NCBI GenBank assembly: GCA_946482545.1
Contig: CAMLRX010000008.1
Location: 1 to 58,021, forward strand
Source: an uncultured Flavihumibacter sp.
GTDB lineage: Bacteria; Bacteroidota; Bacteroidia; Chitinophagales; Chitinophagaceae
DNA: 58,021 nt
Reading direction: 5' to 3'
Below, one piece after another: positions 1,258-4,287 of this stretch. The number at the start of each line of letters is the position of its first letter. The stretch's first letter is position 1. A model generated the notes under the pieces. It was given only the letters and a program-made list of their open reading frames with translations, ran no database searches and had not been told where the DNA came from. Made by a program: the position numbers and the translations under genes.

Positions 1258-2235
1258 ATGGACATCAAAAACAACATCTTAGAAACCATCGGAAACACGC
1301 CGATGGTAAGGTTGAACAGTATTACCAAAGATCTTCCCTACCCTGTGCTGGCGAAGGTGGAATACTTTAATCCCGGTAATTCCATTAAAGACCGGATGGC
1401 CCTTAAAATGGTGGAAGTGGCCGAAAAAGAAGGTAAACTAAAGCCTGGCGGTACCATTATAGAATGCACCTCCGGCAATACCGGTATGGGCCTTGCACTG
1501 GCCGCGGTTGTGAAAGGGTACAAGTGTATCTTCACCACCACCGATAAGCAGTCCAAAGAAAAACTGGATATCCTCCGGGCCGTAGGCGCTGAAGTGATTG
1601 TTTGTCCAACCGATGTGGAACCCGAAGATCCGCGCTCTTACTATTCCGTGGCCCGCAAACTGGCGGCGGAAACCCCCAATTCATTTCATTGTAACCAATA
1701 CGACAACTTCGCCAACCGCCAGGCGCATTTTGAAACGACCGGTCCTGAGATCTGGGAACAAACCGACGGTAAGGTGACGCACCTTATTGTGGCTACGGGC
1801 ACGGGCGGCACCATCACCGGTACCGCGCAGTACCTGAAAAAGATGAACCCAGACATCCAGGTTTGGGCCATAGACCCCTATGGCTCGCTGCTCGCGCACT
1901 ATTTTGAGACCGGGGAAGTGGACATGAGTCAGGTTCATCCTTATATATCTGAAGGCATTGGCGAAGACTTTGTGCCGAAGAACTACGATATGAGCGTGGT
2001 GGACCGTTTCGAAAAAGTAACCGATAAAGAAGGCGCCATAATGGCCAGGAGAATCGCACTGGAAGAAGGCATTTTCGCAGGATACAGTGCCGGTACTGCT
2101 TTGCAGGGACTGATGCAGTTAGCCAACCTGCTGAGCAAGGATAGTTTACCCGTTGTAATTTTCCACGACCATGGCAGCCGTTATGTGGGGAAAATTTACA
2201 ACGATACGTGGATGAAGGAAAAAGGATTCCTCTAG
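1258..2235 (+). CDS. PLP-dependent cysteine synthase / cystathionine beta-synthase-like enzyme
   Basis: A 325-residue fold-type II PLP enzyme that makes cysteine from O-acetylserine and sulfide, or cystathionine from serine and homocysteine. The Schiff-base lysine is K44 in NSIKDRM, the substrate loop is TSGNTG near residue 70, and the phosphate-binding glycine loop is GTGGTITG near 180. The EGIGEDFVP segment is closer to cystathionine beta-synthases than to CysK. The C-terminal CBS regulatory domains are absent, so only the catalytic core is present. The gene may be transcribed with the protease gene upstream and ends at a strong terminator. The family is certain; the choice between CysK and CBS activity is open. 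Confidence 0.9.
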   Translation: MDIKNNILETIGNTPMVRLNSITKDLPYPVLAKVEYFNPGNSIKDRMALKMVEVAEKEGKLKPGGTIIECTSGNTGMGLALAAVVKGYKCIFTTTDKQSKEKLDILRAVGAEVIVCPTDVEPEDPRSYYSVARKLAAETPNSFHCNQYDNFANRQAHFETTGPEIWEQTDGKVTHLIVATGTGGTITGTAQYLKKMNPDIQVWAIDPYGSLLAHYFETGEVDMSQVHPYISEGIGEDFVPKNYDMSVVDRFEKVTDKEGAIMARRIALEEGIFAGYSAGTALQGLMQLANLLSKDSLPVVIFHDHGSRYVGKIYNDTWMKEKGFL

Positions 2236-2281
2236 TATAAAATTACATGCCAGCTTATCCGTGAAATCACGGATGCGGAAA

Positions 2282-2335
2282 ATCCCGCAACAGATTAATC
2301 TCAACCTTAATCCGTTGCGGGATCGCTTATTTTTA
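2282..2335 (+). terminator. Intrinsic terminator after the cysteine synthase-like gene
   Basis: The arms at 2282-2291 (ATCCCGCAAC) and 2314-2323 (GTTGCGGGAT) pair perfectly. After one mismatch the stem continues as GATTAA/TTAATC inside. A T-rich tract follows at 2327-2335. Confidence 0.85.
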
Positions 2336-2404
2336 AGAGGTTCTACTTAGTTTATCACATGATTCATAGTAAAAAATAGTAGTTATACGATGTTTTAGAT
2401 CGTA

Positions 2405-2429
2405 ATTCAACAGCCTTACAATGTTGAAT
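2405..2429. promoter_or_regulatory. 8-bp inverted repeat upstream of ncRNA copy A promoter
   Basis: ATTCAACA (2405-2412) and TGTTGAAT (2422-2429) form a perfect inverted repeat with a 9-base spacer, about 50 bases upstream of the TTG box at 2481. It could be an operator or a hairpin. No counterpart was found at the same place before copy B. Confidence 0.35.
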
Positions 2430-2480
2430 GTCCGAGATACAGGGGAAATACTGAAGAATATAAATAGGGCAATAATGCGC

Positions 2481-2511
2481 TTGTACAGGGAATGGTGGCG
2501 TTGTACTTTTG
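2481..2511 (+). promoter_or_regulatory. Bacteroidota-type promoter of ncRNA copy A
   Basis: TTG at 2481-2483, 20 bases, then TACTTTTG at 2504-2511, matching the TTG/TAnnTTTG consensus of the Bacteroidota housekeeping sigma factor. The element preceding copy B has the same -7 octamer and the same 20-base spacing. The predicted start is about 2516-2517, at the first base of the conserved helix. Confidence 0.75.
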
Positions 2512-2516
2512 TATCG

Positions 2517-2877
2517 GAAGTTGATTGATAGAGTTGCTCAAATCCAATATCCGGTTGATAGAACCAACCAATATCCAAGAAATCCAAGAAGACCGTCCAA
2601 AAAGTATTTCCAATTCCTACAAAAAAACCGAAGCAAAATCCAATATCAATCAGCTTCTTCCTTTTTTCCAATATCCACCTGAAATAGCCGCCAATTCCTG
2701 GAGAACCGCATCCAATCCTTAGAACGAAACCTGAACCGTTTCAAACCTTATTGTATCCAATCCATCCTTCGTAAAAACCGGAACTTAAAATCGTCCTGGA
2801 AAAATCTATTATCCACTATCTATTAGATCTTAGCCATTAATCCAATACCCTCCTGCTGACCGCAATTCAGCAGGAGG
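2517..2877 (+). ncRNA. Putative structured non-coding RNA, copy A
   Basis: No database family was recognised. The predicted transcript begins with GAAGTTGATTGATA (2517-2530), which pairs over 14 bp with 2644-2657 (TATCAATCAGCTTC, one G-U pair) and closes a loop of about 113 bases. It ends with an 11-bp hairpin, 2849-2859 with 2867-2877, that has no T-tract. The RNA is visibly poor in G and carries TCCAAT at 2543, 2609, 2639, 2667, 2711, 2756 and 2841. The only forward reading frame of any size (2525-2722, TTG start) is not kept in copy B, so coding is unlikely. Promoter spacing, helix and 3' hairpin are all shared with copy B. The function is unknown. A Rho-loading leader or a decaying repeat are the main alternatives. 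Confidence 0.6.
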
Positions 2878-3037
2878 CAAAGTGAAAGGAGTCCTTCCCG
2901 GTAACTTTCTACAACTACTCTCCCATTTCAGGCACAGTTTTTGAAAACTACATCAGCAACCCCGCTTTAACAATTCTGTTTTTCAAACTTTTCCCCTCCC
3001 TGTTCACAATTCATTAATAATCAAACGATATGCCGGT

Positions 3038-3053
3038 GTAGTAAATTTACTAC
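3038..3053. promoter_or_regulatory. 16-bp perfect palindrome upstream of ncRNA copy B promoter
   Basis: GTAGTAAATTTACTAC is a perfect 16-bp palindrome with no spacer. It lies 45 bases upstream of the TTG box of copy B, where an activator or repressor could bind. No matching protein gene is identifiable nearby. Confidence 0.4.
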
Positions 3054-3097
3054 CCCCACCGTATTTTCTGAAACGTTAAAATCCAGCATATCTCCTC

Positions 3098-3128
3098 TTG
3101 TGCAAGTTTTACCACATTTATACTTTTG
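3098..3128 (+). promoter_or_regulatory. Bacteroidota-type promoter of ncRNA copy B
   Basis: TTG at 3098-3100, 20 bases, TACTTTTG at 3121-3128. The conserved GAAGTTGATTGATA begins six bases after the -7 box, exactly as in copy A. Confidence 0.75.
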
Positions 3129-3133
3129 ATCCA

Positions 3134-3468
3134 GAAGTTGATTGATAACAATTGGTATCCAATATCCAAAAAAACCAAGATCACTAAATCCAATTATCCG
3201 ATTAAGAAACCGTCCTGAAAGAGTTCCAGATCCTTGAAAAACCAGCGACAAAATCCAATATCAGTCAGCTTCTTATTTTGTCCAATATCCGGGTCCTTAA
3301 AAGACCTGCTAAATATGAAAACCGAAAGTCCAAAATGTCCAAGTCCATCTGATCCGATGATCCTGATGAAAACCGTCCAAAATCCATCCGAAAGGAAAAC
3401 CAGATCTGTCCTGTAGAGAACTTTATGAAATCCAATACCCTCCAGCTAAATGAATTTTTAGCTGGAGG
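3134..3468 (+). ncRNA. Putative structured non-coding RNA, copy B
   Basis: A diverged tandem partner of copy A. The arm at 3134-3147 is identical to that of copy A and pairs with 3259-3272 over 14 bp with two G-U pairs. The block 3249-3274 matches 2634-2659 of copy A with one substitution, and that substitution keeps the pairing as U-G. AATCCAATACCCTCC (3429-3443) is identical to 2839-2853. The closing hairpin is 3439-3450 with 3457-3468, 12 bp, with a stem sequence different from copy A but still complementary. TCCAAT occurs at 3158, 3189, 3254, 3281 and 3431. A small hairpin ATTGG/CCAAT sits at 3151-3163. The copy ends 33 bases before the start codon of the next gene, so it could also act as its 5' leader. 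Confidence 0.6.
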
Positions 3469-3486
3469 TAAAAGGGAAGGAAAATG

Positions 3487-3494
3487 TACCTTTA
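3487..3494 (+). promoter_or_regulatory. Possible -7 box before the periplasmic-binding-like gene
   Basis: TACCTTTA differs by one base from TAnnTTTG and ends 7 bases before the ATG at 3502. It would give a nearly leaderless transcript. No TTG lies at the expected distance, so this is a weak call. Confidence 0.3.
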
Positions 3495-3501
3495 GCCCTT
3501 T

Positions 3502-4287
3502 ATGGAAATCACTACCGACCAAATGGGAAGAACCGTTTCAATTCCCGCTCCTCCTCAAAAAATTGTTTCCCTCGTTCCTTCCATCACTGAATTATTGTGC
3601 GCACTGGGTTTAGAAGACCGAATTGCGGGCATTACCCGTTACTGTATTTTTCCTGGTCATTTACTCCAGGAAAAAACGGTGGTGGGTGGTACGAAAAAAA
3701 CGGTACCGGAACGCATCCATGGCATTTCACCTGATCTGATCATCGCTTCCAAAGAAGAAAATATACAGGCTGAGGTTGAAATGTATGCGGAGCAGTACCC
3801 GGTATGGGTAAGCGATGTGGCATCCCTGGAAGACGCGCTTCAACTTATCCGCAGCATCGGACAACTTACCGGCACCAGTTCCACCGCTGAACAGATGATT
3901 GAAACCATTCAGGCCCGCTTCAAAGCGCTCCCTGCCGTTCAACCGGTAAAAGGTGCCTACCTCATCTGGAAAGATCCGGTAATGACCATCGGCAACGACA
4001 CGTTCATTCATGATATGATGCGCATTGCCGGTATCCGTAATGTTTTCGATTCAGAAAAAAGATATCCCGTCACCACACTTGAAGCCATTGCCGCGCTGTC
4101 GCCAGACGTAATATTACTTTCTTCGGAGCCCTATCCATTCAGACCGGAACACATCACGTGGATTAAAGACCAATTGGGCAATGTACCGGTGCACCTCGTG
4201 GATGGCACGTATTTTAGTTGGTACGGCAGCAGGCTACTGGATGCCCCGGCTTATTTTCGTTCAGATATTCTTCCGATAATAACCTGA
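3502..4287 (+). CDS. Helical-backbone metal receptor / BtuF-like substrate-binding protein
   Basis: A 261-residue protein of the TroA/BtuF-like fold that binds corrinoids, haem or chelated metal for ABC import. The family pattern shows as an early strand with the RIVSLVPS-type motif (here KIVSLVPSITELL near residue 24), followed by GGT and PDLIIAS segments and a second lobe ending in DGTYFSW. There is no signal peptide: the protein starts MEITTDQMGR. This is common for this Bacteroidota subgroup and argues against a free periplasmic binding protein. No permease or ATPase gene is adjacent. The start is chosen because the family begins with the MGR-type strand. The ligand is not known. Confidence 0.8.
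   Translation: MEITTDQMGRTVSIPAPPQKIVSLVPSITELLCALGLEDRIAGITRYCIFPGHLLQEKTVVGGTKKTVPERIHGISPDLIIASKEENIQAEVEMYAEQYPVWVSDVASLEDALQLIRSIGQLTGTSSTAEQMIETIQARFKALPAVQPVKGAYLIWKDPVMTIGNDTFIHDMMRIAGIRNVFDSEKRYPVTTLEAIAALSPDVILLSSEPYPFRPEHITWIKDQLGNVPVHLVDGTYFSWYGSRLLDAPAYFRSDILPIIT

Follow-up and report, generated by a model that had tools for sequence, protein, structure and literature searches.

A multi-copy family of UCC-repeat noncoding RNA genes in Chitinophagaceae, with a conserved promoter and linked two-component regulators

What are the two similar sequences that follow each other at positions 2481–3470 of this DNA, and what could a genome use them for? The window (the whole stretch analysed, 58,021 nucleotides of a contig from an uncultured Flavihumibacter sp.) had been described in an earlier note as holding there a tandem pair of a possibly new structured RNA gene, each copy with the same promoter, 14-base start, internal block, end motif and closing hairpin, and with the same distance from promoter to helix. 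All these landmarks were recovered: GAAGTTGATTGATA opens both copies (2517–2530 and 3134–3147), in each case 5 nt past the −7 box; the internal blocks at 2634–2659 and 3249–3274 differ by a single base; and AATCCAATACCCTCC recurs at 2839–2853 and 3429–3443. Sequence comparison confirmed that 2481–3470 holds two diverged copies of one conserved noncoding RNA gene, 617 nt apart from start to start, each made of a Bacteroidota-type promoter, a 14-bp helix around a G-poor loop, 21–22 UCC motifs and a 3′ hairpin. The tandem pair is real, but it is only one site of a multi-copy set. The parts of the two copies are as follows:

2444–2480, + strand: upstream promoter element, copy 1 (GGAAATACTGAA at 2444–2455, GGGCAATAATGCGC at 2467–2480; kept in the 134-member alignment and in promoter model R2)
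2481–2511, + strand: core promoter, copy 1 (TTG at 2481–2483, N20, TACTTTTG at 2504–2511)
2517–2530, + strand: predicted 5′ arm of the closing helix, copy 1 (fold; covariation in 109 distinct relatives)
2531–2643, + strand: UCC-rich loop, copy 1 (mostly single-stranded by prediction; motif enriched in 140 loops)
2644–2657, + strand: predicted 3′ arm of the closing helix, copy 1 (fold, covariation)
2658–2848, + strand: second UCC-rich region, copy 1 (ends in AATCCAATACCCTCC, 2839–2853)
2849–2877, + strand: predicted 3′ hairpin, copy 1 (arms 2849–2859 and 2867–2877; 11 bp, without a U-run)
3046–3072, + strand: upstream promoter element, copy 2 (TTTAC-N10-GTATTTTCTGAA)
3098–3128, + strand: core promoter, copy 2 (TTG at 3098–3100, N20, TACTTTTG at 3121–3128)
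3134–3147, + strand: predicted 5′ arm of the closing helix, copy 2 (fold, covariation)
3148–3258, + strand: UCC-rich loop, copy 2 (fold, motif enrichment)
3259–3272, + strand: predicted 3′ arm of the closing helix, copy 2 (fold, covariation)
3273–3438, + strand: second UCC-rich region, copy 2 (ends in AATCCAATACCCTCC, 3429–3443)
3439–3468, + strand: predicted 3′ hairpin, copy 2 (arms 3439–3450 and 3457–3468; 12 bp, without a U-run)

Copy 1 is 364 nt long and carries 21 UCC against 4 GGA, copy 2 is 337 nt long and carries 22 against 2; the G content between helix and 3′ hairpin is 13–15%. A 17-bp inverted repeat at 2282–2323, after cysM and ahead of the first RNA promoter, is perhaps the terminator of cysM.

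Chance as the source of the resemblance is ruled out because the conservation extends outside the window. BLAST found homologues in 10 of 59 relatives, and scanning a genome collection for a pattern made of both helix arms returned at least 119 stretches; among the 80 listed, the titles name Bacteroidota lineages, many of them Chitinophagaceae, to which we take the genera concerned to belong. Searches with a covariance model (R1, built from 20 sequences and 14 pairs) matched 114 of 294 Chitinophagaceae genomes, with from at least 1 to at least 10 matches each, copy numbers per genome being lower bounds since a limited number of candidates was scored in each; in an even draw across the phylum, which included at least 11 Chitinophagaceae genomes, the model matched 5 of 296, all five of them Chitinophagaceae. 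The comparisons below use 140 members obtained by BLAST and by the pattern scan requiring both arms; identical 5′ domains are counted once, which drops copy 2 of the window, identical in that domain to another member (L001).

A protein gene was considered and rejected: stop codons interrupt all three forward frames of both copies, the lengths of the 5′ domain of the 140 members spread over the three remainders modulo 3 (58/40/42), and some frame of this domain is open in just 29 members on the plus strand and 40 on the minus strand. The few antisense frames that are shared (KLIDIG...) look like a by-product of conserved nucleotides. This family, judged from its sequences, is thus almost certainly a conserved RNA gene family of Chitinophagaceae, as the earlier note had proposed when it set aside a protein gene and a recent duplication; homologues do exist elsewhere, and their lengths drift out of frame instead of showing codon-type conservation. 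Its remark that no known RNA class was recognisable also held. Indeed, none of the 4,227 models of Rfam release 15 matched the window at the gathering threshold, and the five matches found in 2200–3600 at E up to 5 all lie on the opposite strand, far below cut-off; 20 related loci behind the same promoter gave no Rfam match either, with two matches below threshold. The literature searched, mostly without subscription papers and preprints, contained no report that we recognised as the UCC-repeat RNA. A noncoding RNA with a closing helix is, in itself, a trait shared with many Rfam families.

The closing helix is formed by GAAGTTGATTGATA pairing with TATCARTCAGCTTC, about 125 bases downstream in both copies (2517–2530 with 2644–2657 in copy 1, 3134–3147 with 3259–3272 in copy 2), so that each RNA would open with a closed domain. 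Helped by this pairing of the arms, the predicted folds are better than nearly all dinucleotide shuffles, with z −2.66 and 1 of 100 shuffles equally good for copy 1, and z −2.88 and 2 of 100 for copy 2. Of the helix cells in 109 distinct sequences, 98.2% are paired; changes on both sides occur in 3 of the 14 pairs, in 42 cells against 14.6 after shuffling, and 37 of these 42 are a U-A to C-G change at one pair, while 7 of the 14 pairs are invariant. Covariation therefore supports the closing helix, mostly through one pair. The conserved structure is limited to this 14-bp helix, joined in some members by a 3′ hairpin: a CCTCC..GGAGG hairpin is found in 14 of the 140 members and a U-rich terminator in 21. 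The label “structured RNA” given in the earlier note fits these two elements; it does not fit most of the RNA, which is predicted to be single-stranded and where the recurring feature is the UCC motif.

Upstream of the helix, conservation covers a promoter of about 90 bp, which also drives RNAs other than the class found in the window (class I). Its consensus upstream of 134 members reads TTTACGA-N8-GTAAATAC, GAA, AAAAT-G-GCAAT--TGCTCTTG, then TATTTTTG; between TTG and the −7 box, the spacing is exactly N20 in every one of the 100 members, out of 140, in which it could be read. A dyad TTAC-N-GTA precedes 63 of 137 members, 51 of them with N10, compared with 4 of 137 when each was shuffled once, and GnGCA-N4-TGCnC is exact in 50 of 140, a count made without a control. 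Such an arrangement could in principle be read at the level of DNA, as an array of binding sites from which no RNA is made. We find this reading barely credible, given the fixed spacing of the promoter, the compensatory U-A/C-G change in the helix and the U-rich terminators of 21 members. A promoter-only model (R2) matched 63 of 97 family genomes at E up to 0.01 and 38 of them at E below 1e-6, with up to at least 13 matches in one genome; these 38 promoter-positive genomes include all 35 that were positive with the RNA model among the 97. Outside Chitinophagaceae, the promoter was considered in a genome of another family (G769) and discarded there, as the two matches are weak and the DNA downstream is not UCC-rich; palindromic GGGGTAAAATTACCCC-type sites account for weak promoter matches of this genome (L214 and L217).

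What recurs along the single-stranded part is the UCC motif. When UCC minus GGA is counted in all 5,770 windows of 340 nt along the 58 kb (both strands), the two copies come first with 22 and 18, the best value elsewhere being 14, on the minus strand near 362–442. In the 140 members, the loop has a median length of 87 nt and holds 4.9 TCC against 0.59 GGA; AUCCAA occurs 283 times in these loops against 42 in dinucleotide shuffles, UCCAAU 142 against 22 and ACCGUCC 79 against 1, and neighbouring CC sites favour distances of 4 (116 against 38) and 7 (142 against 33), shared ancestry being left in all of these counts. UCC and ACC motifs often stand 7–8 nt apart, as in UCCAAUAUCC, and the RNA measures roughly 230–425 nt among members with a readable end. 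A target mRNA with a UCC cluster was searched for on both strands of about 1 Mb of fetched DNA, a sample centred on the RNAs, and none was found: 138 UCC-cluster windows exceeded the threshold, 6 of them in long open frames, and the others are, by our own reading, members or diverged members of the family.

The transcription terminator Rho prefers C-rich, G-poor RNA with repeated YC, and the RNAs could accordingly serve as a decoy for a general single-strand binder of this kind rather than for a dedicated regulator. Their composition (12% G, 24% C), open loops and many CC sites would suit such a role; on the other hand, AUCCAA, ACCGUCC and the distances of 4 and 7–8 look more specific than a YC binder needs, and in the draws made the RNAs occur in a single family, so that we regard a Rho decoy as distinctly unlikely.

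The motif is also found where the helix is not. We fetched 20 strong promoter matches that stop before the helix arms, a subset of all the arm-less ones, and none was recognised by RNA model R1 at E 0.01 (best 0.025). The first 250 nt of these bodies hold on average 10.45 TCC against 3.65 in a control taken 500–750 nt downstream, and 1.25 GGA against 3.4; at least 8 TCC are present in 19 of the 20, the exception being L194. The same k-mers as in class I recur, and CC distances of 7 and 8 are seen 51 and 44 times against about 12. Yet the bodies themselves differ: BLAST sorts them into nine groups with no similarity from one group to another, 15 of the 20 gave no match to class I and 5 a short one, and 6 retain the TTGATT start. 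One group, beside an oxidoreductase-like gene (labelled by eye), has a conserved 3′ end, and another, also by eye, has its own closing repeat. In one locus (L026, 2344–2563), the body is built of a 26-nt unit carrying CC motifs, repeated 8.6 times in tandem, and a terminator-like hairpin and a U-run come after it. Eight loci behind the same promoter (L190, L192, L193, L195, L196, L199, L201 and L209) have in common the 3′ end AATTTGTACC..GTACAAA and a conserved middle part, which may form a second structured domain; they gave no Rfam match.

The RNA body seems to vary while the number and spacing of the motifs stay the same, which favours reading these genes as sponge RNAs that would titrate an RNA-binding protein through the UCC motif; this is the interpretation we prefer, with a confidence somewhat above even. 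An RNA sequestering something else by its structure, with the closing helix as a protein site, for example, and UCC as a secondary trait, would explain why the helix is so strongly conserved (7 of 14 pairs invariant); as the motif persists in RNAs that follow the same promoter without having the helix, we hold this to be very unlikely.

The neighbouring genes offer a candidate switch. Among the 140 members, 56 start within 500 bp of a NarL/LuxR-type response-regulator frame and diverge from it, 37 lie downstream of cysM as in the window, and 47 are elsewhere; in the window itself, no regulator gene adjoins the pair. The linked regulators have Response_reg and GerE domains, and the kinase encoded nearby has HisKA_3 and HATPase_c domains. 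The regulator subfamily tested has MctR and UvrY/SirA/GacA as its closest models, without reaching their cut-offs (119.7 bits for the GacA model, whose cut-off is 280). At E below 1e-100, this subfamily is present in 36 of the 38 genomes with a strong promoter match against 1 of the 59 without (Fisher p = 5e-23, not corrected for phylogeny); in one of the 36 (G024), the gene is cut short by the end of a contig and was included on the strength of its identity, and the two genomes that lack the subfamily (G062 and G110) are split into about 400 and 900 contigs. In locus L156, from the nearest relative compared with the window, an RNA copy that ends in a terminator-like hairpin and U-run stands between two regulators. 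From this linkage and co-occurrence, we infer that the two-component system probably controls the RNAs.

A protein of 120–140 aa is encoded past the second regulator in L156 (1865–3100) and in L046, L058, L096, L136, L205 and L208; in L156, it is preceded by a promoter-like match without a UCC-rich RNA, and one of the promoter matches of G769 lies upstream of an apparent homologue, recognised by eye. As examined beside the second regulator, at 120–136 aa, this protein has no Pfam or NCBIfam match; among 120 of its 611 homologues that were listed, names are mostly “hypothetical protein” where given, and its AlphaFold model (mean pLDDT 47.5) is too weak to use.

Several RNAs per genome, many copies of a short motif in differing bodies, and promoters linked to a NarL/FixJ-type regulator (GacA/UvrY) are well known from the Csr/Rsm systems, with CsrB, CsrC and RsmX/Y/Z, whose families are present in Rfam. 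The RNAs described here share these three traits, the regulator being of NarL type. They differ from Csr/Rsm in the motif, which is UCC and not GGA (4.9 TCC against 0.59 GGA per loop), in the regulator, which stays under the GacA cut-off, in having no match in Rfam, and in the protein: CsrA was found in none of the 97 family genomes, while control genomes were positive. Because two defining features, GGA and CsrA, fail, the UCC-repeat RNA is not a member of Csr/Rsm, and the layout deduced from the sequences resembles that of CsrB/RsmZ under GacA.

The mechanism that we propose follows the scheme GacA → RsmZ/CsrB ⊣ CsrA, in which both the motif and the protein would be different ones. The copies in the window would be paralogous genes of a multi-copy small RNA acting as a multivalent decoy: a HisKA_3-type kinase and NarL/LuxR-type regulators would drive the conserved promoter, the UCC/ACC motifs in single-stranded stretches would bind and titrate an RNA-binding protein, and titration would release the target mRNAs of that protein. 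Transcription, control by the linked regulators, protein binding and titration are deduced here, and what was computed is the family, its promoter, the covariation of the helix, the repetition of the motif across bodies without detectable similarity, and the linkage and co-occurrence of the regulators. The broader view, for which we see the case as evenly balanced, is that Chitinophagaceae have evolved, apart from Csr/Rsm, a global post-transcriptional switch in which up to about a dozen UCC sponge RNAs, driven by a two-component system, titrate one undescribed UCC-binding protein. If true, the system would stand beside Gac/Rsm as its convergent counterpart, one that preserves the number of motifs as its RNA bodies vary.

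Which protein could be titrated? CsrA was found in 0 of the 97 family genomes, and Hfq passed the cut-off in 0 of the 38 promoter-positive ones (two weaker matches were seen). Judging from the domain searches, RRM_1 proteins are a candidate partner: all 38 promoter-positive genomes have at least two, with a mean of 4.6 against 2.4 and 0.89 against 0.56 per Mb. They occur in 91 of the 97 genomes and are thus not specific to the promoter-positive ones. An RRM subtype was considered as the specific partner, being commoner in a hand sample of promoter-positive genomes, and was rejected as it is present in many negatives among the 97.

An RRM partner is already known in the phylum: FopS, a multi-copy sRNA family of Bacteroides thetaiotaomicron, works with the RRM protein RbpB, and its RNAs of about 65–70 nt repress PUL mRNAs through a conserved seed, R1′ (PMC11697453). 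The RNAs described here could likewise be multi-copy base-pairing sRNAs, whose UCC would pair with GGA-containing mRNAs with the help of an RRM chaperone. Besides this precedent in Bacteroidota genomes with RRM proteins (PMC11697453), the presence of RRM_1 in 38 of 38 promoter-positive genomes and of Hfq over cut-off in 0 of 38 speaks for such a role. Against it, FopS RNAs are short and rely on a conserved seed, while no long seed is common to the RNAs here: their bodies differ, short motifs recur at fixed distances, and a tandem array makes up one of the bodies. The present RNAs also differ from FopS in their greater length (where ends are readable) and in their repeated UCC. RbpB is reported to bind GUAGGAUA and not a probe with the UCC-containing UCCUGUGC (PMC12119571), which also counts against an RRM protein as the partner of a UCC sponge. 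On balance, we judge base-pairing unlikely, and the sponge reading is the one we retain.

In the sponge reading, the promoter-defined set of sponge-like RNAs would provide a bait (the UCC repeat), a switch (the linked regulators) and a catalogue of sites across the genome, with which the missing RNA-binding protein and the regulon it controls can be tested for directly. Near the 140 class-I copies, neither an RRM nor a cold-shock frame was found. Elsewhere, in L254 (genome G067), an RRM gene and a gene that we take, from its motif, to be cold-shock-like are located about 1 kb from an RNA copy.
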